A DNA stretch of 64,000 nucleotides from Acinetobacter baylyi DSM 14961 = CIP 107474 (GTDB taxonomy: Bacteria; Pseudomonadota; Gammaproteobacteria; Pseudomonadales; Moraxellaceae). The position numbers and the translations under genes were made by a program. The notes under the pieces were generated by a model that made no database searches, was not told the origin of the DNA, and saw only the letters and a list, made by a program, of their open reading frames with translations. Location of the stretch: contig NZ_KB849626.1 in assembly GCF_000368685.1 (NCBI RefSeq), positions 232,476 to 296,475 on the forward strand. The letters are read 5' to 3'. Positions 8,683 to 20,735 of this stretch are shown one piece after another (the stretch's first letter is position 1; each line of letters starts with the position of its first letter).

Positions 8683-9441
8683 TTAGAGACGCATTTCGAT
8701 GCCTTGTGCAGCCAAAAACTGTTTTGCTTCAGGAATGGTATGCTGACCAAAGTGGAAAATACTGGCTGCCAGTACCGCATCTGCACCACCTTTTAAAATC
8801 CCATCTGCCATATGCTGTAAATTCCCTACGCCGCCAGAGGCAATGGTGGGAATTGAAACACGGTTGTTAATTTCACGCATCAAGGCAATGTCATAACCTG
8901 CTTTGGTACCATCGGCATCCATACTGGTCACCAGCAGTTCGCCTGCGCCGTATTCTGCCATCTTCACCGACCACTCCAGTGCATCAATGCCCGTAGGCTT
9001 ACGACCACCGTGGGTAAAAATTTCCCATGTGTTGTCGCCTGTTTTTTTAGCATCAATTGCAACCACAATACATTGGGCCCCAAAGCGTTGTGATGCTTCT
9101 TGTACAAACTCAGGATTAAACACGGCTGCCGAGTTAATGCTCACTTTATCTGCACCTGCATTCAGCAATAAACGAATGTCTTCCACCTTACGCACACCAC
9201 CCCCGACAGTCAGAGGGACAAATACGCTTTCTGCCATACGTTCAACTGTACGATAGGTGGTATCACGACCATGATGCGTTGCAGTAATATCCAGAAAAGT
9301 AATTTCATCTGCACCTTGCTCATTGTAGCGACGTGCAACTTCAACAGGATCACCTGCATCACGAATATCTAAAAATTGCACGCCCTTGACCACACGGCCA
9401 TTATCGACATCAAGGCAGGGAATAATACGTTTTGCAAGCAT
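8683..9441 (-). CDS. hisF: imidazole glycerol phosphate synthase subunit HisF
   Basis: HisF is the cyclase half of the HisF-HisH complex. It uses ammonia from HisH to turn PRFAR into imidazole-glycerol phosphate and AICAR in histidine synthesis. The (beta/alpha)8 barrel opens with [19 protein letters not shown], which holds the first catalytic Asp, and has phosphate-binding GGGVR and SGGVGN loops near the end. Taking the ATG at 9441 gives 252 residues, the usual length, with GGA about ten bases upstream. A second ATG four codons earlier (9453) lacks a ribosome-binding site. The gene stands apart from hisA and hisH, about 9 kb away, and is divergent from thrB. Confidence 0.96.
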
Positions 9442-9554
9442 TGTGGCATCCAACAGTATGAGTCTAAATAAATAAATTTTCCGAGATTGCAGAGAATCTT
9501 GGTAAACTGCTTGGGTATTCTATCAAACTTATATTTGTTTCACGCAGGTTTTAT

Positions 9555-10505
9555 ATGTCGGTTTATACCCCGTTGAGTTTACAGGAAGTTCAAGCATTTG
9601 CATTGCCTTATGGATTAGAGGTGATTGACTTGATTCCAATTCAGGGAGGTATTGAAAACACCAATTACTTTTTGGTCGCAAACAATCAGCAACAGTATGT
9701 TTTAACGGTTTTTGAAGAGCTAGATGAGCAGGGAGCAAGTGAGTTGCCGCCTGTATTACAGCATTTGGGGCAGGCGCATGTGCCTGTTGCTGTGCCTTTA
9801 AATTATGAAGGCAAGTTTATCCATCGTATTGCGCAAAAACCTGCACAAATTGCACCACGTATTGCGGGTGAACATCCGATTCCATCGAATATTGCACAAG
9901 TCAAAAGTATTGCCGCTGCACAGGCAAGTTTACATCTGGCTTTGCAGAATTATTCTTTAGCGCGCTCAAACAGCCGTAACCATCAGTTCTGGACAGCCGT
10001 AGGTGAAAGCTTAAAACCCGTGATGTCTACAGAAGATCTGAATCTTTTAAATCAGGTGTATGTACAGTTTAATCAGCTTCGTGAGCAACATCCAGATTTG
10101 CCGTGTGGCTGGATTCATTCGGATATGTTCCGCGACAATACCTTGTTTGTGGGGGATGAACTGGAAGGTATCTTGGATTTTTCTGAATTAAATCAGGATG
10201 ATTTTTTATTTGATATTGCGATTAGCATCAATGATTTTTGTACAGAATATCCAGAAGCATATTTAGACCATGACAAGCTACAGGCATTTGTAGATGCTTA
10301 CCAATCTGTACGTAGCTTGACGCAGGATGAACACACATGTTTGCCCATTTATCTGGCGATGGCAGCCTGTCGTTTCTGGCTGATGCGTTTACAGGTAGCA
10401 CAGCGTAACGCGCAGGAAGGCCGTATAGGTGATGATATTATGCAGAAAAATCCACTCGAAATGCGCAATATGCTGGTAGACCGTTTACAGGCAATGGCGA
10501 AATAA
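9555..10505 (+). CDS. thrB: homoserine kinase (APH-type)
   Basis: The enzyme phosphorylates homoserine with ATP in the threonine pathway. At 316 residues it is the aminoglycoside-phosphotransferase-fold homoserine kinase of Pseudomonas and Acinetobacter, not the GHMP kinase of E. coli. The N-terminus has the nucleotide loop region (PIQGGIENTNYFLV). The catalytic Brenner motif reads GWIHSDMFRDNTLF, followed by the metal-binding GILDFSELNQDD. The next gene begins 12 bases after its stop, so they share a transcript. It is divergent from hisF with about 100 bases between. Confidence 0.95.
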   Translation: MSVYTPLSLQEVQAFALPYGLEVIDLIPIQGGIENTNYFLVANNQQQYVLTVFEELDEQGASELPPVLQHLGQAHVPVAVPLNYEGKFIHRIAQKPAQIAPRIAGEHPIPSNIAQVKSIAAAQASLHLALQNYSLARSNSRNHQFWTAVGESLKPVMSTEDLNLLNQVYVQFNQLREQHPDLPCGWIHSDMFRDNTLFVGDELEGILDFSELNQDDFLFDIAISINDFCTEYPEAYLDHDKLQAFVDAYQSVRSLTQDEHTCLPIYLAMAACRFWLMRLQVAQRNAQEGRIGDDIMQKNPLEMRNMLVDRLQAMAK

Positions 10506-10517
10506 GGATATACGGAT

Positions 10518-11144
10518 ATGCGAGATCAGGGACGTTTGGTCGAGTGGTTTGATGACAAGGGCTATGGCTTTATTCAGCCCAATGATTCTCAAAAGGGCCG
10601 TGTATTTCTGCATATCCGTGATTTTGCACGTAAGGGGCCGCGTCCGATTGTTGGCTGTGCGCTTGAATATCTTGTGATTCTGGATGAACAAGGACGGCAT
10701 CGGGCCATTCAGGTGGTGTATTTAAAAGCCCAGCAAGCACGCCCGACTCAACCCAAAAACAATGTAAATAAACCTAATCAGCCGAGTACATTGGCACCGA
10801 TGCAAATTGCGTGTGTGCTTTATATTTTAGCGATTGCTGTATTGAGTTGGATGCATGTTTTGCCTAGCTATAGCTTTATTTTTATTGCTCTGATGAATGC
10901 ACTCAGCTATTGGCTCTATGCCCAAGATAAAGAAGCGGCGCAACTGGGAAATCGGCGCGTGCCTGAGCAAAGCTTGCACATTGTTGCATTTTTGGGAGGT
11001 TGGCCAGCGGCTTGGCTGGCGCAACAGAAATTGCGACATAAAACACAAAAACAACCCTTTAGAAAGATTTATTTCTGTACCATAGTTTTAAACATACTTT
11101 TATTGTTGTGGTTCATTTCTCCTTTAAATGTCATATTGCATTAA
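10518..11144 (+). CDS. cold-shock domain / DUF1294 membrane protein
   Basis: This 208-residue fusion begins with a cold-shock (OB-fold) nucleic-acid-binding domain (residues ~1-68, GRLVEWFDDKGYGFIQPND then VFLHIRDF, the RNP-like motifs). A linker of Gln, Pro and Asn follows. The C-terminal half (~95-208) is a DUF1294 membrane domain with about four transmembrane helices and its typical GGWPAAWLAQQKLRHKT motif. The combination is widespread in Gammaproteobacteria but has no settled function; RNA binding tethered at the membrane is implied. It starts 12 bases after thrB with a good AAGGA site and probably lies in the same operon. Confidence 0.88.
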   Translation: MRDQGRLVEWFDDKGYGFIQPNDSQKGRVFLHIRDFARKGPRPIVGCALEYLVILDEQGRHRAIQVVYLKAQQARPTQPKNNVNKPNQPSTLAPMQIACVLYILAIAVLSWMHVLPSYSFIFIALMNALSYWLYAQDKEAAQLGNRRVPEQSLHIVAFLGGWPAAWLAQQKLRHKTQKQPFRKIYFCTIVLNILLLLWFISPLNVILH

Positions 11145-11181
11145 AGGGAGCATGAAATAGAAAAATCAAAAAGGTGTCCTT

Positions 11182-11577
11182 ATGAATCTTCCTTCAGAAC
11201 AAATTCAATCCAATAAAACTTTAACGCTGGTCTTATATATTCTTTATATTGCTGCGATTTTTAGTGCAGGCTTATTAGCGATTGTGGCGCTGATTATTAA
11301 TTATGTGAAACGTAATGATGTTCAAGGAACATGGCTTGCCAGTCACTTTACATGGCAAATCCGCACATTCTGGTGGTACCTGTTCTGGAATGTCATCGCC
11401 TTTGTTCCATTCTTCTTTTTATTTTTTACAGGTGACAATGACAATCTGTTTGCAGGAATCGCGCTTTCGGCCAGTACTTTCTGTGTCGTTGTGATTGGTT
11501 TGGCATGGGTCTGGATTGTCTATCGCGCTATACGTGGTCTGATTGCACTGAATGATAATAAGGCCATGTATCAGTGA
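11182..11577 (+). CDS. DUF4870-like small integral membrane protein
   Basis: This 131-residue protein has three to four hydrophobic helices: LVLYILYIAAIFSAGLLAIV, FWWYLFWNVIAFVPFFFLFF, and the last around SASTFCVVVIGLAWVWIVYR. The polar loop SHFTWQIRTFWW is typical of DUF4870-type proteins, which have no known function. AAGGTG precedes the ATG. It follows the cold-shock/DUF1294 gene by 37 bases on the same strand with no terminator seen between them. Confidence 0.8.
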   Translation: MNLPSEQIQSNKTLTLVLYILYIAAIFSAGLLAIVALIINYVKRNDVQGTWLASHFTWQIRTFWWYLFWNVIAFVPFFFLFFTGDNDNLFAGIALSASTFCVVVIGLAWVWIVYRAIRGLIALNDNKAMYQ

Positions 11578-11734
11578 TAGATGCGGTTTTTAAGAGAATA
11601 AAGCGTGTGGGTTTGCACTCTTTATTCTGATGAAAAGAAGAATAAATACTCGATATAGTGGAACGGCCACAAAGCTGGGTTGATGGATGGGGCAATGTGG
11701 CCTGATTATATTACGACGAAATTAAAATACAACA

Positions 11735-13456
11735 ATGCTGAAATTTCTAAATAAAATCGAACCATTACAGAGCTATATTTTTGCATGTAAACTTTCGATG
11801 CAACAGCACCCACGTCTTAAATGGAATTTTATTGGCATGTTCATGCTGGTGTTGCTGGCGGCTTTTTTTGAGACGTTATTTCCTTATTTAATGAAACTGC
11901 TGATTGATCAGGTTGAACAAAACCGAACGTTGCAGCTTCGTTCACTGTTTGAAATTAAACTGCTGTATTTGTTGGTGATTGCATATGCCACAGCATGGCT
12001 GATGTCCCAGTTACTGATCTGGTGTAAAAATTTGTACAGCATGGTCATGTCTGTCAATTTTGAAACATCCTTAATGGCGAAAGGTATTCAAAATTTTTTA
12101 GCGTTACCGAAACAAAAGCAGGATGAGATTGAAGCAGCCGCATTCATCACAGATATACAACGCGGTGGGTCGGCATTAAGTGAAATGACATTTTCACTTT
12201 TTATTCTGCTCGGGCCAATTGTATTGCAACTATTTTTTATTTTTGTGGTGTTATTTAAAATTATTAGTGGTGTGTTTGGTCTATTTTTCGTAATCGCAAT
12301 TTTGATGGCATTTATTGCTTCATTCTGGATTAGTCAAAAAAGTAGCCATTTTTTTGATCAGATGTATGCACAAAGAAACAAGATTAATCAGACCATTTTA
12401 GAAAAAGTTTCGCATAGTTATGAAATTAAAATTAAACATGCTCAGCAATATGAACAAAATCGTCTTGAGCAGACTTTGGATGAATACCGGACAGTGATTA
12501 AAAGTACCAATATTCGTATTGGTATATTGATGATGGTACAGGTATTTTTAATTTTCTTGTTCTTGCTTGGGTTTATGTTATATACCGTTTATATTTCTCA
12601 AACTCAGCAAATCACCTCGGGTGATTTTGTTTTGATCAGCACTTATATTATTCAGTTAACCATGCCATTTTTGATGATTTCGCAAAGTCTGATGCGTGTA
12701 AATGGTAATATGGTGGCATTAAAAATTTACCGTCAGTATTTTAATCTGCCACATGAGCAATATCAGACTCAATCTGTAAGCAACAAAATTTTACCCATGT
12801 TATATCAGTTCAAAGATGCAACTTTAAACCTTGGCAAAAACAAGATTTCTCATTTTAATCTCAATATCCGTTCTAACACTTGTTATGCCATTGTGGGCCA
12901 GACAGGACGGGGTAAAACATCACTGCTGCATTATTTAATGGGAATTTCTAAAATTGAGTCTGGGCATTTATATTATAAAAATCTGGAGATTTCCAAAGCA
13001 TTTTCAGTCGAGATATTTCAACAAGTCAGCTTTGTTGCACAACAGTCTGTGGTTTTTTCGGGCAGTTTAAGGGATAACTTGATTTACAACAGTGGTTATT
13101 CCTATACAGACGCTGAATTAATGCTATGGCTGGAACGGTTTAAACTGCAATCCATTTTAGAAAAAAATCAGCTTAAACTTAATGATGAGCTCGGAGATGT
13201 TTATAAAAACTTCTCTGGAGGAGAAAAACAGAGAATCAGTCTGTTACGCGCTATTTTAGCGAAGCCTCAAGTCTTAATTTTAGATGAGCCTACCTCTGCT
13301 TTAGATGCCGATACCGCCACACAGATCATGCTGCTGATTGTGCAACAGGTACCCAGTGTGATTATGGTGACACATGCCAAAGACTGTATTGCAATGGCCG
13401 ATGAGCTGATTGATCTGGATCAGATTATGCTTAATGCAGCGATTCATTCTGCTTAA
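11735..13456 (+). CDS. ABC transporter, fused permease and ATPase
   Basis: This 573-residue half-transporter of the MsbA/exporter type would act as a homodimer in the inner membrane. Residues ~30-310 form a six-helix transmembrane domain. Residues ~350-570 form the ATPase, with Walker A GQTGRGKTS, a Q-loop around QQVSFVAQQS, signature NFSGGEKQR, Walker B VLILDEPTSALD and the H-loop VTHAKD. No Shine-Dalgarno sequence is evident before the ATG. It precedes the large Pls/PosA-like synthetase by 350 bases on the same strand, which hints that it might export or flip that enzyme's product. The substrate is not known from sequence. Confidence 0.88.
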   Translation: MLKFLNKIEPLQSYIFACKLSMQQHPRLKWNFIGMFMLVLLAAFFETLFPYLMKLLIDQVEQNRTLQLRSLFEIKLLYLLVIAYATAWLMSQLLIWCKNLYSMVMSVNFETSLMAKGIQNFLALPKQKQDEIEAAAFITDIQRGGSALSEMTFSLFILLGPIVLQLFFIFVVLFKIISGVFGLFFVIAILMAFIASFWISQKSSHFFDQMYAQRNKINQTILEKVSHSYEIKIKHAQQYEQNRLEQTLDEYRTVIKSTNIRIGILMMVQVFLIFLFLLGFMLYTVYISQTQQITSGDFVLISTYIIQLTMPFLMISQSLMRVNGNMVALKIYRQYFNLPHEQYQTQSVSNKILPMLYQFKDATLNLGKNKISHFNLNIRSNTCYAIVGQTGRGKTSLLHYLMGISKIESGHLYYKNLEISKAFSVEIFQQVSFVAQQSVVFSGSLRDNLIYNSGYSYTDAELMLWLERFKLQSILEKNQLKLNDELGDVYKNFSGGEKQRISLLRAILAKPQVLILDEPTSALDADTATQIMLLIVQQVPSVIMVTHAKDCIAMADELIDLDQIMLNAAIHSA

Positions 13457-13806
13457 AAATAAACACGTCAATACACGTAAATAATCCGCATGATTTTGTA
13501 AGTGATTCTCCATTTTTTATTATATATTTAGAAAAAATATTGCAGAACAAGATCTTGGAAAAATTTCATTTTTTACTTTGTTTCATACCAATAATCGTAT
13601 TAATCCATTTTTTAATCGTGATTTAAGTAATTCTAATTAGCATAACTTCTAAACAATAAACCTGAATAAAAAAACTGATTTTAGGTGGTTGTTTTAACTT
13701 TATATGTCGCGAGCTCAATTACATATAAATACAGGCGTTTTATCCCGAGTTTTTGTTTGGCAAAAATGACAGATAAATAAAACGATGGCGAACATTCGGA
13801 CTCTAT
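13457..13806. other. AT-rich intergenic region upstream of the synthetase
   Basis: These 350 bases between the ABC transporter and the synthetase hold no gene and no terminator I can support. Several T-rich tracts are present, and TATAAA near 13725 could be a -10 element, but no matching -35 box is clear. The length suggests that the synthetase has its own promoter and control region. Confidence 0.6.
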
Positions 13807-16800
13807 ATGAACGCAATTATTCATGTTCCCTCAGTGATTCGTGGTGAACAACGACCAGAATTTATTCGTAACGAAGTGCTTTCAGACATTTTGGATGCAA
13901 CCGCTGCCCAGTATCCTGAGCATGTTGCACTGATTGATCAGGAGCGCAATGTTACTTATGCACAATTGTGCAAACAGGCAAACGATATTGCTCAGCAACT
14001 CATTCAACGTGGGATCAAGGCTGGGGATATCATCGGATTATGGCTGCCACGTGGTGCAGACCTTTTAATTGCGCAGGCGGGTATCTGTAAGGCAGGTGCA
14101 GCATGGCTACCATTTGATATGGATGTGCCTGTAGACCGTATTCAGGTGTGTCTGGATGACGCGCAGGCAGCGGGAATCATCACCAGTCTGGACTGGGCTG
14201 ATAGCCTGCAACAGTTAAGTCAGCCTGTCTGGCCAGTCAATACGCTGAATCAACCGACAGGGCAGCCAAGCATAGCACAGCGTGCTGATTTGGCAGATCC
14301 TGCTTATATCATCTATACCTCAGGTTCTACAGGTAAACCCAAAGGCATCGTGATTGAGCAGCGCAATATTTGCCATTTCTTACGTTCTGAAAATTCGGTA
14401 TTGGGCGTGCGTCATGAAGACAAGGTTTATCAAGGTTTCTCGGTGGCATTTGATATGTCGTTTGAGGAAGTCTGGATTTCATATCTGGTGGGTGCGACCA
14501 TCTGGATTGCACCTAAAGATCTGGTGACCGACCCAGAACGTTTATGTAAAGCCTTACAACAACAAAATATCACGGTACTACATGCGGTTCCAACGCTACT
14601 GGCCTTATTTCCAGAAGATGTGCCCAACCTGAGAATTATCAACTTGGGAGGGGAAATGTGCCCCGAAGCACTGGTGGCACGTTGGGACTTACCACATCAC
14701 CAGATTTTTAATACCTATGGTCCAACTGAAACTACGGTTACTTCAAGTCTAGCGCGTGTTTATGCCGATGAACCAGTCACTATTGGTGTACCACTCCCCA
14801 ACTACGGCATGTTGGTACTCAATGACCAGTTTGAGTTATTGCCTCAGGGTGAAGTTGGTGAGTTGTGCGTTTTTGGGCCAAGCGTCGGACGTGAATATCT
14901 TGGACGTCCTGAACTTACGGCTGAAAAATTCATTCATAACACTTGGGCCAATAATGACAATGAGCTCAAGCTTTACCGTACAGGTGACTTGGCGCGTCTG
15001 GATGAAAATGGTCAGATTCAGTGTTTGGGCCGTGCCGATGATCAGGTCAAAGTACGTGGCTTTCGCGTCGAATTGGGTGAGATTGAAGCGGCACTCTGTG
15101 ATTTAAATGGCATTGGAACAGCGGCTGTGGTCTTACGCCGTGACGATGAGATGGATCAACTGGTAGCGTTTATTGTACTGGATCAAGAACAAAAAAATCT
15201 GATTCAGGTCAAGGAGATTCGTGCGTATCTTAAATCGCGCTTACCAGCTTACATGATTCCAAATCGCTTTGAGATTGTGGAGCAAGTGCCACGCTTGTTG
15301 TCTGGCAAAATTGACCGTAATGCATTACGTAAAATTGAATTACAGACATCTGTAGAAGCTGCGGTATCCGATGAACCTCAGAATGAAGCAGAACAGATTT
15401 TATTTGACACGCTCAACAAGATTTTTCCGAATCAACCGATTCAACTCAATGCAGACTTCTTTGATGATCTGGGTGGACATTCACTTTTGGCAGCTGTTTT
15501 GACCTCACAATTGCGTGAATATCCGCAATATGCACAGATCACCATTCAGAATATTTATCAGCTTCGTAAGGTCGGTGCAATTAGTCAGTTTATGTTGCAG
15601 CAGGCCAAGCAACAGCAGATGCGTGAAGTCACCACTTACGAGATCAACAGTACAAATCGTATTCGTTGTGGTATTGCTCAGTTTATGGTGATTCCAATTT
15701 TAATTGGATTGACCATTTTGCAATGGTTGGCGCCATTCTTTAGTTATCACTATTTCACAGGTAGTCCAGGAGACAGTACTGTTCGAGCAATGGGAATCTC
15801 ACTAGGCGTGTATATTGTGAGTGTGATACTTAGCTTTGCGATTTCAGTGATTGGTAATCGTTTGCTGCTTAAGGGTATTCAGCCTGGCCAGTATCCGTTA
15901 TGGGGTAAAACCTATTTTAGATGGTGGTTGGCAGATCGCTTAACAGGTGTTGCACCAACCTATCTGTTGGCGGGTTCTACACTGAATAATCTCTATTTAA
16001 AAGCACTGGGTGCCAAAATTGGTCACGATGTACACATGGGTTCAATTCATGTACGTATGCCAAACTTACTGACCGTTGGTGATGGTGTGAGTATTGGTTC
16101 GCATGTCAATCTTGAAAATGCCAAAGTTGAGCAAGGCCAACTGGTTTTGGGCAAAATCGAGCTGAAAAAAGAAAGCTATGTCGGCTCGTATAGCGTCATT
16201 GAGGAAAATAGCTGTCTAGAGGAATATGCACATCTTAAAGCACTGTCTGCATTGCCAAATGGTAAAACCATTCCTGCCTTTGAAATGTGGGATGGTGCAC
16301 CAGCACAGTATAGCAAACAGGTCGATGTTGCACATTTGCTGCCAAGAGAGCAGGTGTCTAAAACACGTAAAACACTAGAAGTGGTCTATTATGCGCTGAG
16401 TGTTATTCTCATTAGCTGCCTATTCTTTGTTCCTATTTTTCCAAGCTTTATTTTGGTGGATTGGTTTGATGTCAATTACCTCAATAACGTGTTGCAGGCA
16501 TCGAATATTGTATCGACAGCATTCCGCTATTTCCTCTTTGCAATTCCAGCCAGTGCCATTATGGTGATTTTGACTGCGCTGTTTGCTGCGTTGTTGCGTA
16601 AAATTATTCTGCCAAATTTAAAACCTGGAACTTACTCTTTACACAGTGGAACTTACTATCGTAAATGGTTTGCGACCCAAATCTTTGAAACCAGTTTACA
16701 AACATTACATGGTTTATTTGCGACAGTGTACGCGCCTGCATGGTTTAGATTGATGGGTGCAAAAGTAGGCCGTGACAGTGAAGTATCAACGGCTACAGGA

Positions 16801-17799
16801 GTCGTACCAGAGTTACTGACGTTGGGCGATGAAAGCTTTATTGCAGATGCGGTGATGCTTGGTGATGAAGAAACTACACGTGGCTGGATGATTTTACAGC
16901 CAACAGTGATAGGTTGCCGTAGTTTCGTGGGCAATAGTGCTTATATTGCAGATGGTACCGTATTACCTGATGGTGTATTAATTGGTGTACAGTCTAAAAT
17001 TCCAGAGCATGATCAGTTACAAAGTGGTGAAACCTGGTTTGGTTCGCCAGCACTACGTTTGCCTGCACGTGAATCTGTGGGTGAATATCCAGAGCACCTA
17101 ACATTTAAACCAAGCATTGGCCGTCGTATGATGCGTGGTCTGATTGAAGGCTTGCGTATTGTGTTGCCGCTGGCTTTCTCGATTGGTATGGGCTATATGA
17201 TTGTCCTTTCCGTGATTGCGCACGTGGTGAATCAGGGATGGTGGTCTGGACTCCTTACTTTAGCTGTCGCAGGGATTGGCTATGGTATTGCCAGCTTCTT
17301 GATTATCGTCCTGTTGAAATGGGTGATGATTGGTCGTTATCAACCCCGTTCAATCCCAATGTGGACCATGTTTGTCTGGTTGAGTGAAGGGCTTACCAGT
17401 CTATATGAATCAATTGCGATTCCAAACTGTCTGAACTATGTCCGTGGGACACCATTTTTACCATCATTGCTACGTTTACTCGGGGTAAAAATTGGTAAGA
17501 ATGTTTATCTAGATACTGCTGATATGACCGAGTTTGATTGTGTATCTATTGGTGATTATAGCGAGCTGAACAGCTTTAGTGGTCCACAAACCCATTTGTT
17601 TGAAGATCGGATTATGAAAATTGGTCAGGTTGAAATTGGAAGCCATGTGACTATTCATTGTCGTAGTATCGTTTTATATAACGCAGAAGTGGCAAATCAG
17701 ACTTTGCTTGGCCCACTCACTCTTGTGATGAAAGGCGAAAAAATTCCTGCGCAGTCTGCATGGATTGGTTCACCAGCCCAGCCATGGACAAATGGATAA
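13807..17799 (+). CDS. Pls/PosA-family single-module nonribosomal peptide synthetase-like protein
   Basis: This 1330-residue protein joins an adenylation domain, a carrier domain and a long membrane part. Adenylation motifs are clear: IIYTSGSTGKPKG near residue 170, FDMSFEEVW (A4), NTYGPTETT (A5), YRTGDLARL (A7), VKVRGFRVELGEIE (A8) and LSGKIDRNALRK (A10). The carrier motif DDLGGHSLL has its phosphopantetheine Ser at 559. The remaining ~730 residues are three tandem units, each made of two transmembrane helices followed by a left-handed beta-helix of hexapeptide repeats (starting near 730, 985 and 1220). No standard condensation or thioesterase domain is present. This is the architecture of the epsilon-poly-lysine synthetase Pls, where the tandem C-terminal domains join monomers. 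A homopolymer or a conjugate of one amino acid is therefore the expected product; the monomer is unknown. An ABC exporter gene lies upstream. Confidence 0.9.
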   Translation: MNAIIHVPSVIRGEQRPEFIRNEVLSDILDATAAQYPEHVALIDQERNVTYAQLCKQANDIAQQLIQRGIKAGDIIGLWLPRGADLLIAQAGICKAGAAWLPFDMDVPVDRIQVCLDDAQAAGIITSLDWADSLQQLSQPVWPVNTLNQPTGQPSIAQRADLADPAYIIYTSGSTGKPKGIVIEQRNICHFLRSENSVLGVRHEDKVYQGFSVAFDMSFEEVWISYLVGATIWIAPKDLVTDPERLCKALQQQNITVLHAVPTLLALFPEDVPNLRIINLGGEMCPEALVARWDLPHHQIFNTYGPTETTVTSSLARVYADEPVTIGVPLPNYGMLVLNDQFELLPQGEVGELCVFGPSVGREYLGRPELTAEKFIHNTWANNDNELKLYRTGDLARLDENGQIQCLGRADDQVKVRGFRVELGEIEAALCDLNGIGTAAVVLRRDDEMDQLVAFIVLDQEQKNLIQVKEIRAYLKSRLPAYMIPNRFEIVEQVPRLLSGKIDRNALRKIELQTSVEAAVSDEPQNEAEQILFDTLNKIFPNQPIQLNADFFDDLGGHSLLAAVLTSQLREYPQYAQITIQNIYQLRKVGAISQFMLQQAKQQQMREVTTYEINSTNRIRCGIAQFMVIPILIGLTILQWLAPFFSYHYFTGSPGDSTVRAMGISLGVYIVSVILSFAISVIGNRLLLKGIQPGQYPLWGKTYFRWWLADRLTGVAPTYLLAGSTLNNLYLKALGAKIGHDVHMGSIHVRMPNLLTVGDGVSIGSHVNLENAKVEQGQLVLGKIELKKESYVGSYSVIEENSCLEEYAHLKALSALPNGKTIPAFEMWDGAPAQYSKQVDVAHLLPREQVSKTRKTLEVVYYALSVILISCLFFVPIFPSFILVDWFDVNYLNNVLQASNIVSTAFRYFLFAIPASAIMVILTALFAALLRKIILPNLKPGTYSLHSGTYYRKWFATQIFETSLQTLHGLFATVYAPAWFRLMGAKVGRDSEVSTATGVVPELLTLGDESFIADAVMLGDEETTRGWMILQPTVIGCRSFVGNSAYIADGTVLPDGVLIGVQSKIPEHDQLQSGETWFGSPALRLPARESVGEYPEHLTFKPSIGRRMMRGLIEGLRIVLPLAFSIGMGYMIVLSVIAHVVNQGWWSGLLTLAVAGIGYGIASFLIIVLLKWVMIGRYQPRSIPMWTMFVWLSEGLTSLYESIAIPNCLNYVRGTPFLPSLLRLLGVKIGKNVYLDTADMTEFDCVSIGDYSELNSFSGPQTHLFEDRIMKIGQVEIGSHVTIHCRSIVLYNAEVANQTLLGPLTLVMKGEKIPAQSAWIGSPAQPWTNG

Positions 17800-17811
17800 A
17801 CGATAAGAGAT

Positions 17812-17845
17812 AAAAAAAAGATGCCTCGTGAGGCATCTTTTTTTT
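17812..17845. terminator. bidirectional terminator, synthetase / hisA
   Basis: The perfect stem AAGATGCCTC / GAGGCATCTT with a two-base centre is flanked by A residues on the left and T residues on the right. It can end transcription of the synthetase from the left and of hisA from the right. Confidence 0.9.
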
Positions 17846-17857
17846 AGCTTAAATGTA

Positions 17858-18589
17858 TTAAAGCGTATTTTGATCAAGCAATAACTGTGCTTCACGAAGG
17901 CTGAGCGTACCTTCATAAATGGCACGACCAGTAATGGCTCCTAAAATACCAGGCTTGCCTTTGAGTAAGCGTACATCATCCAGATTGGTAACACCGCCAG
18001 AAGCAATCACGGGTAAGCCAGAATACTGCGCCAGATTGACAGTCTGCTCGACATTTACACCTTGCATCATGCCATCACGTGCAATATCGGTATATACAAT
18101 GCTTGAAACACCTGCATCGGCAAAACGTTTGGCCAAATCAGTTGCTTTTACATCTGTCACATTGGCCCAGCCATCGGTTGCCACCATGCCATCTTTGGCA
18201 TCGATGCCTACAATGATATGACCAGCAAACTGTTTGCATGCCTGCTCGACAAACTCAGGATCTTGTACGGCTTTGGTACCAATAATGACAAAGGATACGC
18301 CTGCATCTAAATAATGCTCAATGGTTTCAAGGGAGCGAATACCACCGCCAATCTGGATGGGAAGCTCAGGTTGTGCTTTGGCAATTGCTTCAACCACTGG
18401 TTTATGAATGGGGGTTCCTGCGAAGGCACCATTCAAATCGACCAAATGTAAACGACGTGCACCTTCATTGACCCAATGCTGTGCGGTTGCAACTGGATCG
18501 TCAGAGAAAACGGTATCGTCTTCCATACGACCTTGCTTGAGGCGGACACATTTACCATCTTTCAGGTCAATTGCAGGGATGATCAGCAT
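17858..18589 (-). CDS. hisA: ProFAR isomerase
   Basis: HisA isomerises ProFAR to PRFAR, the step before HisF-HisH in histidine synthesis. The 243-residue (beta/alpha)8 barrel has the catalytic Asp in [16 protein letters not shown] and the second in YTDIARDGM. Phosphate-binding loops QIGGGIRS and ASGGV match the HisF paralogue. AAGGAG lies at good spacing before the ATG. The upstream gene on the strand is the DUF805 protein (111-base gap), so hisA may have its own promoter. Confidence 0.96.
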
Positions 18590-18700
18590 GCTTTCGCTCC
18601 TTGCTTCATCTTTAAACTAAAAAAATTGTCTCATCTTAACAAACTATTTTAAAATCACTAAGCAAACAACGCGCCGATTTGACCGAAATAGAGGAGTCGC

Positions 18701-19270
18701 TTATGACAGTCTATTATTATGCGTTGAAACAGGTTGAATCATCTGTGAAACATCTGAAACCTGCTTACTGTGCAGGGTGTATCGCTGATAGGCCATCATG
18801 GCATCTGAACTGACCCCTAAAATAACGACAATCGGCATCAGCACAATATAAATCCAGCCCATCACCCGTTCCCAAGAGGGAGTAGCACGAGGTGCACCAA
18901 ATCGGTTGGTTTCGATATCACCTTTGGCGCATAACAGATAGATGATAAAAATTAAATTAATAATGGGAATGAAAAACAGAATGGCAAACCAGCCATTATG
19001 GTTGCGGTCATGTAATCTACGAATAATAAAAATCACGCTAAAAACTAGAAACGTCACATATATGGCGATCAGAAGCAAGGAACCAAATATTTGTATGGCA
19101 TTGGAATCTGACGCTAGAGCACCAAATACAACAGAGATCACAAGGAGCATACCAATAATTGCAAGGGTGCTCACAAAGGACCATGCCGCAAAAGAGAGAC
19201 GACCAAAGCGACCTTTTGCTTTAAATGGGCTATTTAGGGAGTATTCAAGAGGGCCATGTGGAGTATTCAT
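18701..19270 (-). CDS. DUF805 inner-membrane protein
   Basis: This 189-residue protein has the DUF805 signature: a GRFGRLSFAAW start, three to four transmembrane helices, and the RRLHDRNHNGWFAILFFIP motif, followed by a conserved N-R-F-G segment (TNRFGAP). A further helix (~135-155) and a polar tail are added. Family members are small membrane proteins of unknown function, related to E. coli YhaH. It sits between hisH and hisA, same strand, but a terminator-like hairpin separates it from hisH. No link to histidine synthesis is known. Confidence 0.88.
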   Translation of the reverse strand: MNTPHGPLEYSLNSPFKAKGRFGRLSFAAWSFVSTLAIIGMLLVISVVFGALASDSNAIQIFGSLLLIAIYVTFLVFSVIFIIRRLHDRNHNGWFAILFFIPIINLIFIIYLLCAKGDIETNRFGAPRATPSWERVMGWIYIVLMPIVVILGVSSDAMMAYQRYTLHSKQVSDVSQMIQPVSTHNNRLS

Positions 19271-19376
19271 TGTTATTTGCCTTCAAAGATAAATTAAAGT
19301 CTATTGTTATGTCGCTGAATGCAGTTTTAAATTTGGAATAAATCTGAAGAAGCTTTACGATTGTGCCTGATTTTTT

Positions 19377-19411
19377 TTGAAAAGATCAAGCTGCATTCGA
19401 CAGCTTGATCT
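19377..19411 (-). terminator. probable terminator after hisH
   Basis: The perfect 11-base inverted repeat AGATCAAGCTG (19383-19393) and CAGCTTGATCT (19401-19411) has a 7-base loop. Read on the minus strand it is followed by a short T-run (TTTTC). It lies just after the hisH stop. Confidence 0.65.
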
Positions 19412-19421
19412 GATGTATTGA

Positions 19422-20039
19422 TCAAATATTCCATTCCACAAAGTTTTTTAACAGTTGTAAGCCAGCAGTGTGACTTTTCTCTGGATGAAACTGGGTGGCA
19501 AACAAATTGTCTTTATGAATTGCGGTGCAAAATTGCAGACCGTAATCGCAGGTTGCTGCAATCAGATCAGACTGTTTGGGTTCTACATAATAACTATGTA
19601 CAAAGTAAAAGCGGCTGTCTTGATCGATATTGTTCCACATCGGGTGAGCAGGATCGTTCTGATATACCTGATTCCAACCCATATGTGGAACTTTTAAGTG
19701 ACCAAGGTCAGGAAAATGTTTAACTGCACCTTCAAAAATACCTAATGCAGGAACACCGCCATTTTCTTCAGAGCTTTCAAGCAGTGCCTGCATGCCAACA
19801 CAGATGGCCAATACAGGCTTGTTAAATACAGCCTGACGTACCACTTCATCAATGCCTGCTTCGTGCATGCCCTGCATACAGTCGCGCATTGCACCCACAC
19901 CTGGAAATACGATTTTATCAGCTTTAGCAATCAGCTTTGGATCATTGGTGACATCTACGGTTGCCCCGACATGCTCAAGTGCTTTAGCAGCAGAGTGTAA
20001 ATTTCCCATACCATAATCAAGAAGGGCAATGCGGGTCAT
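19422..20039 (-). CDS. hisH: imidazole glycerol phosphate synthase glutaminase subunit HisH
   Basis: HisH releases ammonia from glutamine and passes it to HisF. The 205-residue class I glutamine amidotransferase has the oxyanion region [10 protein letters not shown], the nucleophile Cys in [13 protein letters not shown], and the His-Glu pair in [13 protein letters not shown]. It begins 2 bases after the hisB stop, so the two genes are translated from one message. Its partner hisF is 10 kb away in the window. Confidence 0.96.
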
Positions 20040-20041
20040 TA

Positions 20042-20635
20042 TTACAGGCTCCCTTTGGTTGAAGCAATGCTGCCAGCCGCGCGAGGATCAATTTCACACG
20101 CCATACGTAAGGCACGTGCAAATGCTTTAAACACGCTTTCAATTTGGTGATGGCTGTTTTTGCCTTTAAGATTATCGATATGCAACGTCATCAATGCGTG
20201 ATTGACAAAACCCTGAAAAAATTCAGAGAACAGATCCACATCAAAGCTGCCGATACGCGCGCGAGTAAATGGAATATCCATAAATAAACCTGGACGACCA
20301 GACAGATCTACGACTACGCGCGATAGTGATTCATCCAATGGTGCATAAAAATGTCCATAACGGCGTAACCCTTTTTTATCACCCAGTGCCTGCGCAAAAG
20401 CTTGTCCGAGGGTGATGCCACAGTCTTCCACGGTATGGTGATCGTCAATTTCCAAATCACCATCACAGTGAATATCGATATCAAATAGGCCATGTCGCTT
20501 GATTTGATCAATCATATGGTCTAAAAATGGAACTCCAGTGTTCAGTGTACCCTGACCAGACCCATCGAGGTTTAAACGAACTCGAATCTTGGTCTCATTG
20601 GTATTTCTTACCACTTCAATGATACGTTCTGTCAT
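20042..20635 (-). CDS. hisB: imidazoleglycerol-phosphate dehydratase
   Basis: HisB removes water from imidazole-glycerol phosphate to give imidazole-acetol phosphate. It is the monofunctional type of 197 residues, without the histidinol-phosphatase domain fused in E. coli. Metal-binding motifs [14 protein letters not shown] and the second repeat's HHQIES are present. The ATG at 20635 is chosen because GAGGAA lies eight bases upstream. It leads the hisB-hisH unit and is divergent from an acetyltransferase gene. Confidence 0.95.
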
Positions 20636-20735
20636 GGACACGTTCCTCAAAAAACGTCAAAAATGATGAATATAAAGATCAATTCGCTGTGACGAAAAAG
20701 TGACAGCATCATAGATTGCTCAGGAGGGTTAATCA

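Follow-up and report, generated by a model that had tools for sequence, protein, structure and literature searches.

A probable delta-poly-L-ornithine synthetase gene, posA, in the his locus of Acinetobacter baylyi

The 64,000-nucleotide stretch of Acinetobacter baylyi DSM 14961 = CIP 107474 analyzed here (contig NZ_KB849626.1, positions 232,476 to 296,475 of the forward strand; hereafter the window) carries in its his locus a large open reading frame (ORF), 13807-17799 on the plus strand, that is translated into 1330 amino acids without internal stops. This gene is very probably the ortholog of Acinetobacter baumannii posA, and its product is most likely delta-poly-L-ornithine, a short cationic chain joined through the side-chain amine. 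The gene and the parts of its protein are as follows:

13807..17799, plus strand: very probable posA ortholog, whole gene (ORF and translation; TIGR02353; 64.4% identity to the A. baumannii copy)
13894..14901, plus strand: adenylation domain core, residues 30-365 (PF00501, 8.6e-75)
14452..14742, plus strand: predicted pocket residues D216, M217, E220, H259, N279, T303, V311, and T312, with K501 outside this stretch (alignment to A. baumannii PosA; roles from PMC10522769)
15079..15309, plus strand: adenylation C-terminal subdomain, residues 425-501 (PF13193, AMP-binding_C, 1.3e-10)
15427..15591, plus strand: carrier domain, residues 541-595 (PF00550, PP-binding, 4.8e-5, 24 bits against a cut-off of 20.8)
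15481-15483, plus strand: codon of carrier Ser559, within DDLGGHSLL
15649..16323, plus strand: terminal domain unit 1, two membrane helices and a beta-helix, residues ~615-839 (hydropathy; model helices 16-50 and 59-88, later strands)
16360..17043, plus strand: terminal domain unit 2, residues ~852-1079 (hydropathy, internal repeat, model)
17116..17781, plus strand: terminal domain unit 3, residues ~1104-1325 (hydropathy, internal repeat, model)

An initial annotation of this gene had described one adenylation domain and one carrier domain (Ser559) without a condensation or thioesterase domain, in a layout like that of epsilon-poly-L-lysine synthetase (Pls), and both points were borne out by Pfam, the motif scan, and the family model. 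The NCBIfam model TIGR02353 ('Pls/PosA family non-ribosomal peptide synthetase') matched residues 624-1324 with 730.2 bits, compared with a cut-off of 423.1, over positions 2-695 of its 695-position profile. One adenylation domain and one carrier domain precede this terminal domain, which is the domain order of the Pls/PosA family, and hexapeptide repeats were matched in the protein by Pfam. The carrier Ser559 was Ser in all 85 aligned family sequences. This alignment consisted of 80 sequences at 53-100% identity to the window protein and five distant ones (Azospirillum, Rhizobium, Sphingomonas, Rhodococcus, and Streptantibioticus). Two loci with no forward ORF of 1251-1499 amino acids (L105, a split A. 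ursingii copy, and L112) were dropped before the counts, and L145, a wrong frame in the 81-row list, was removed before the counts on the 85 sequences. At E<=0.001, Pfam returned no condensation or thioesterase family in the 1330-residue protein, and the condensation motif HHxxxD[GA] was not found anywhere in it by motif scan, in departure from a canonical nonribosomal peptide synthetase (NRPS) module. Three GxSxG strings are present, none of which coincides with a Pfam thioesterase match. A hidden condensation or thioesterase domain, the former of which the initial annotation had raised, was thus not found by Pfam or motif; such domains were also absent among the structure matches listed (50 of 498 from Foldseek; 50 from VIA), a statement that holds for the listed matches and not for families beyond them.

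In a search of solved structures, the top matches to the window protein were PDB 8G95/8G96 (609.6 bits, residues 5-411) and 8G97/8G98 (607.1 bits), with 280.8 bits for epsilon-poly-L-lysine synthase 7WEW. Entries 8G95-8G98 are the adenylation domain of PosA from A. baumannii 307-0294 (Patel & Gulick 2023, PMC10522769). For this enzyme the same paper reports a kcat/KM for L-ornithine more than 160-fold above that for L-lysine and, as the in vitro product, delta-poly-L-ornithine of 7-12 units by liquid chromatography/mass spectrometry (LC/MS), with the isopeptide (delta) linkage assigned by dansylation. It also reports that a synthetic polyornithine 12-mer inhibits the growth of three fungi and that a posA knockout forms slightly more biofilm. 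The idea in the initial annotation that no product had been characterized from Acinetobacter is thus corrected, and a probable product can be assigned to the window gene; the dipeptide or lipid also considered there finds no parallel in the ortholog, whose reported product is a homopolymer (PMC10522769).

Alignment with the copy in A. baumannii VB958 (CP040041.1) gave 64.4% identity (855 of 1328 residues). With PosA of A. baumannii 307-0294 the window protein shares the domain order, the family model, six membrane helices and three beta-helices in models, and 8 of 9 pocket positions; it differs in overall sequence (~64% identity, taken from the VB958 copy) and in having Thr in place of Ser313. 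Architecture and family are likewise common to the window protein and Pls, but the match is much weaker (280.8 vs 609.6 bits), and where the window protein has Met217, Pls has Ala (PMC10522769). Family, pocket, and phylogeny hence place the protein in a known class of enzymes whose product has already been demonstrated in the genus, and the new details are small: a his-locus posA in the clade of the window, its independence of a neighboring transporter, and the invariant motif QTHLxEDRxMK. Literature searches for NAPAA and for NRPS-like clusters of A. baylyi turned up nothing of use.

The A4 motif FDMSFEEVW, at residue 215, supplies D216, M217, and E220, the three pocket residues named in the initial annotation, and its hint of a basic substrate holds in that the pocket is that of the ornithine enzyme PosA bar one Ser-to-Thr change. 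Residues D217, M218, E221, H260, N280, T304, and V312 of PosA and its C-terminal lysine are all kept in the window protein, and S313 corresponds to Thr312. The pocket codes are thus DMEHN-T-V-T-K for the window and DMEHN-T-V-S-K for A. baumannii PosA, with 8 of the 9 compared positions identical. Based on this pocket identity, L-ornithine is most likely the substrate. Several observations weigh against this assignment. The residue at the Ser313 position differs from that of the crystallized enzyme (Thr, with the hydroxyl kept), and the S313A variant of PosA carried a 183-fold cost (PMC10522769). Thr occupies this position in the Rhodococcus and Streptantibioticus members, which have a DFEY pocket, and Phe at the second pocket position has been tied to diaminopropionate and diaminobutyrate enzymes (PMC10522769). 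Moreover, no export or immunity gene for the product was identified.

A shift of substrate to a shorter diamino acid, for example 2,4-diaminobutyrate, would leave the family and mechanism as they are and give another poly-diamino-acid as product. The extra methyl of Thr would slightly shrink the pocket, and Thr is found at the Ser313 position in the window and in 17 of the 34 Acinetobacter rows (a count that includes the N-terminal fragments of broken genes), as well as in the two DFEY-pocket members. We nevertheless regard such a shift as very improbable: M217, whose position has been reported to govern the length of the side chain, is conserved together with D216, E220, H259, N279, and T303, and very close relatives within a single 6-row clade have either Ser (A. 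baumannii) or Thr (A. nosocomialis and A. calcoaceticus). Because the Ser/Thr change recurs among such close relatives, L-ornithine is still the best predicted substrate. Across the 85 aligned family members, 70 had the code DMEHN-T-V-S-K, 10 including the window had DMEHN-T-V-T-K, and five had single other codes, all counted without column 302, which does not correspond to the Gly of PMC10522769. The Azospirillum and Rhizobium members (L171 and L172) have a DLEDI pocket, described in PMC10522769 as one of several unique signatures of uncharacterized homologs.

Eight overlapping hydropathy segments in the terminal domain merge into six membrane helices, which form three pairs. Pairwise alignment of the three repeat units gave scores of 186, 140, and 103, far above those of shuffled sequences, for which the means were 32.5-34.3 and the highest scores 58-65 in 200 shuffles per alignment. 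For residues 600-1330, an AlphaFold model built on an alignment of 53 rows (the window and 52 of 77 usable loci) had a mean predicted local distance difference test score (pLDDT) of 88.5 and a predicted template modeling score (pTM) of 0.89; in it, a pair of long helices with short beta-helix-type strands after it occurs three times. Hydropathy, repeat scores, and model all agree with the three tandem units of two membrane helices and a hexapeptide beta-helix that the initial annotation had proposed. The model also agrees in outline with the published AlphaFold and RoseTTAFold models of the PosA terminal domain, which consist of three packed left-handed beta-helices; the polymerizing domain of the Pls/PosA family is, according to the same paper, known only from predicted models (PMC10522769).

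One conserved motif stands out in unit 3:

17587..17619, plus strand: QTHLFEDRIMK, residues 1261-1271, candidate active-site motif (invariance; catalytic role putative)

Within it, Q1261, T1262, H1263, L1264, E1266, D1267, R1268, M1270, and K1271 (QTHLxEDRxMK) were invariant in 85 of 85 sequences, and among the His residues of the terminal domain only H1263 was fully conserved in this alignment. Its counterparts in the repeat alignments are Met1017 in unit 2 and, in unit 1, Ala772 (aligned directly) or Asn768 (aligned via unit 2), none of them a His. As this motif is invariant and contains the one fully conserved His of the terminal domain, we propose a single site of transfer, located in unit 3; conservation suggests a catalytic role for QTHLxEDRxMK and one active site around H1263, a proposal much less firm than the product assignment.

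Among the Foldseek and VIA matches listed, those to the terminal domain were nearly all left-handed beta-helix proteins, with acetyltransferases on top and several bound to coenzyme A (CoA); the best one listed was a CoA-complexed acetyltransferase (Z 8.3, 2.9 Å, 141 residues). Left-handed beta-helix acyltransferases transfer an acyl group from a pantetheine thioester and are separate soluble subunits that use CoA. Hexapeptide-repeat acyltransferases, such as the maltose/galactoside O-acetyltransferases and the N-acyltransferase AntD, have a fold like the soluble part of the window protein, as compared mainly on unit 1. The window protein is unlike them in that three units are fused, anchored in the membrane, and joined to a carrier domain. 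Tentatively, throughout the Pls/PosA family the terminal domain may be a membrane-anchored trimer in which hexapeptide-type transferase units are fused, with QTHLxEDRxMK in unit 3 as its sole working site and the pantetheine arm of the carrier in place of CoA, although we consider this rather doubtful. Against a single site stand the fold matches, which are middling and show fold only (best Z 8.3; query template modeling score <=0.17 among the 50 listed), the coverage of the VIA matches, which is concentrated on unit 1 (mainly model residues 74-269) and says little about the fold of unit 3, and the strongest sequence matches of the terminal domain, which were to gamma-carbonic-anhydrase-type proteins and not to acyltransferases. 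If true, the single-site proposal would name the catalytic center of isopeptide polymerization, which the PosA paper leaves open; no catalytic site of the QTHLxEDRxMK kind is named in the searched parts of its main text (PMC10522769), and no priority is claimed. The invariant histidine motif also offers a direct test of the residues that form the isopeptide bond in the Pls/PosA family.

The product assignment implies a reaction in three steps. The adenylation domain would activate ornithine, with D216 holding the alpha-amine, E220, T303, and T312 holding the side-chain amine, and M217 limiting side-chain length; these residue roles were shown for the A. baumannii enzyme (PMC10522769), and the pocket match points to the same substrate here. 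A phosphopantetheinyl transferase would then arm Ser559, and ornithine would be loaded onto it as a thioester. The membrane-bound terminal domain would finally join the ornithines, the side-chain amine of one attacking the thioester, with release of the oligomers, a step shown in vitro for A. baumannii (PMC10522769) and presumed here. Two candidate phosphopantetheinyl transferases of the ACPS family are present in the genome, one of them ~9 kb from another adenylation-domain gene on the same contig. In Rhizobium and on a Sphingomonas plasmid, a phosphopantetheinyl transferase gene lies directly 3' of the Pls/PosA gene (L172 7011-7628; L173 6936-7493), unlike in the window.

The terminal domain exceeded the TIGR02353 cut-off in 31 of 175 Acinetobacter genomes and in 1 of 14 named genomes of a control set; a looser tally of 175 out of 175 reflects much weaker matches, mostly of hexapeptide-repeat size. 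In a tree of 36 rows, in which PosA was the only characterized Pls or poly-diamino-acid synthetase knowingly included, the window protein paired with that of A. soli (87% identity) within a 5-row clade that also holds A. guerrae and two further Acinetobacter genomes. This clade was sister to a 15-row clade containing A. baumannii, with supports of 100/100. The tree did not include the split A. ursingii copy, whose two pieces show 80% and 87% identity to the window protein.

A full-length posA ORF was present in 28 of 32 genomes and broken in the other 4, the 32 being the 31 above the cut-off plus G100, whose copy falls below it; this count would overlook any remnant too short to appear among the listed matches. 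It is hardly credible that the window gene is itself a decaying remnant without function. Broken copies do occur in four genomes (G116, G024, G100, and G147), but in the window the reading frame runs uninterrupted through 1330 codons and retains the adenylation motifs, the carrier serine, the pocket residues, and the invariant residues of the terminal domain. The breaks (L022 7962-9170; L023; L024; L065; L066) are repeated and of different form: the copy is split in G116 (A. ursingii), has an internal loss in G100, and exists twice in G147, with both copies split. In G024, a Mutator-family transposase ORF lies between separate frames. An extra-domain architecture in this genome, where the two matching pieces were each assigned a frame length of 1799 codons, was rejected on account of the transposase ORF, and the copy was classed as broken.

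Two further features flank posA in the window:

11735..13456, plus strand: upstream gene of ABC exporter type, judged a non-dedicated neighbor (PF00664 and PF00005)
17811..17846, no strand assigned: stem of 16 pairs with runs of A and T on its flanks, probable terminator shared by posA and hisA (pattern scan, hit on the minus strand only)

Terminator-like hits in the region numbered 7, no more than in shuffles (mean 5.9). In the window and five related genomes (G036, G040, G095, G116, and G164), posA lies directly beside hisA at the his locus. The neighbors of posA in the A. baumannii record are instead greB, an SgcJ/EcaC-type gene, and a hypothetical gene. A. baumannii posA has been described as a single-gene operon (PMC10522769).

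The ABC transporter gene lies 350 bases upstream of posA on the same strand, and the two are neighbors in five of the six genomes of the window's clade, as would be expected of a two-gene operon of synthetase and dedicated exporter. Neighborhoods across the 175 Acinetobacter genomes make such an operon improbable, and the transporter was rejected as a posA-specific exporter, in that it is found at the his locus whether or not posA is there. At E<=1e-60, the transporter was matched in 37 of the 175 genomes, with at least 15 at the his locus (within ~4 kb of marker ORF 11182) and 20 elsewhere or on another contig; G103 (marker position not listed) and G026 (marker unmatched) were left unplaced. 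The 15 his-locus transporters comprise five next to posA, five in genomes with posA elsewhere (broken in G100), and five in genomes without posA over the cut-off. Of the ten sites at which posA is not adjacent, four were read directly and confirmed the gene order. A split transporter gene occurs in G097, one of these four, and in G040, one of the five with posA adjacent, where it forms two ORFs. G164 has posA in the his locus and no transporter match, and in 20 of the 31 genomes with posA the transporter is unmatched at the same threshold. The transporter thus resides at the his locus independently of posA and is therefore a poor candidate for a dedicated exporter.

The stretch beside hisA (window 8683-20650; L026, L027, L086-L089) carries variable cargo, namely the ABC transporter and posA in the window, a permease and a flavin adenine dinucleotide (FAD)-type oxidoreductase in G040 and G095, and an EamA-type transporter with a helix-turn-helix (HTH)-cupin regulator in G124, G097, and G008. 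With this cargo and the his gene names assigned by eye rather than by family search, the stretch looks like a site of repeated gene gain. Between hisA and hisH, at window positions 18701-19270, lies the gene of a small DUF805 membrane protein (9.6e-21), which is 41-52% identical in the five related genomes, a low value compared with the 87-98% of hisA, hisH, and hisB.

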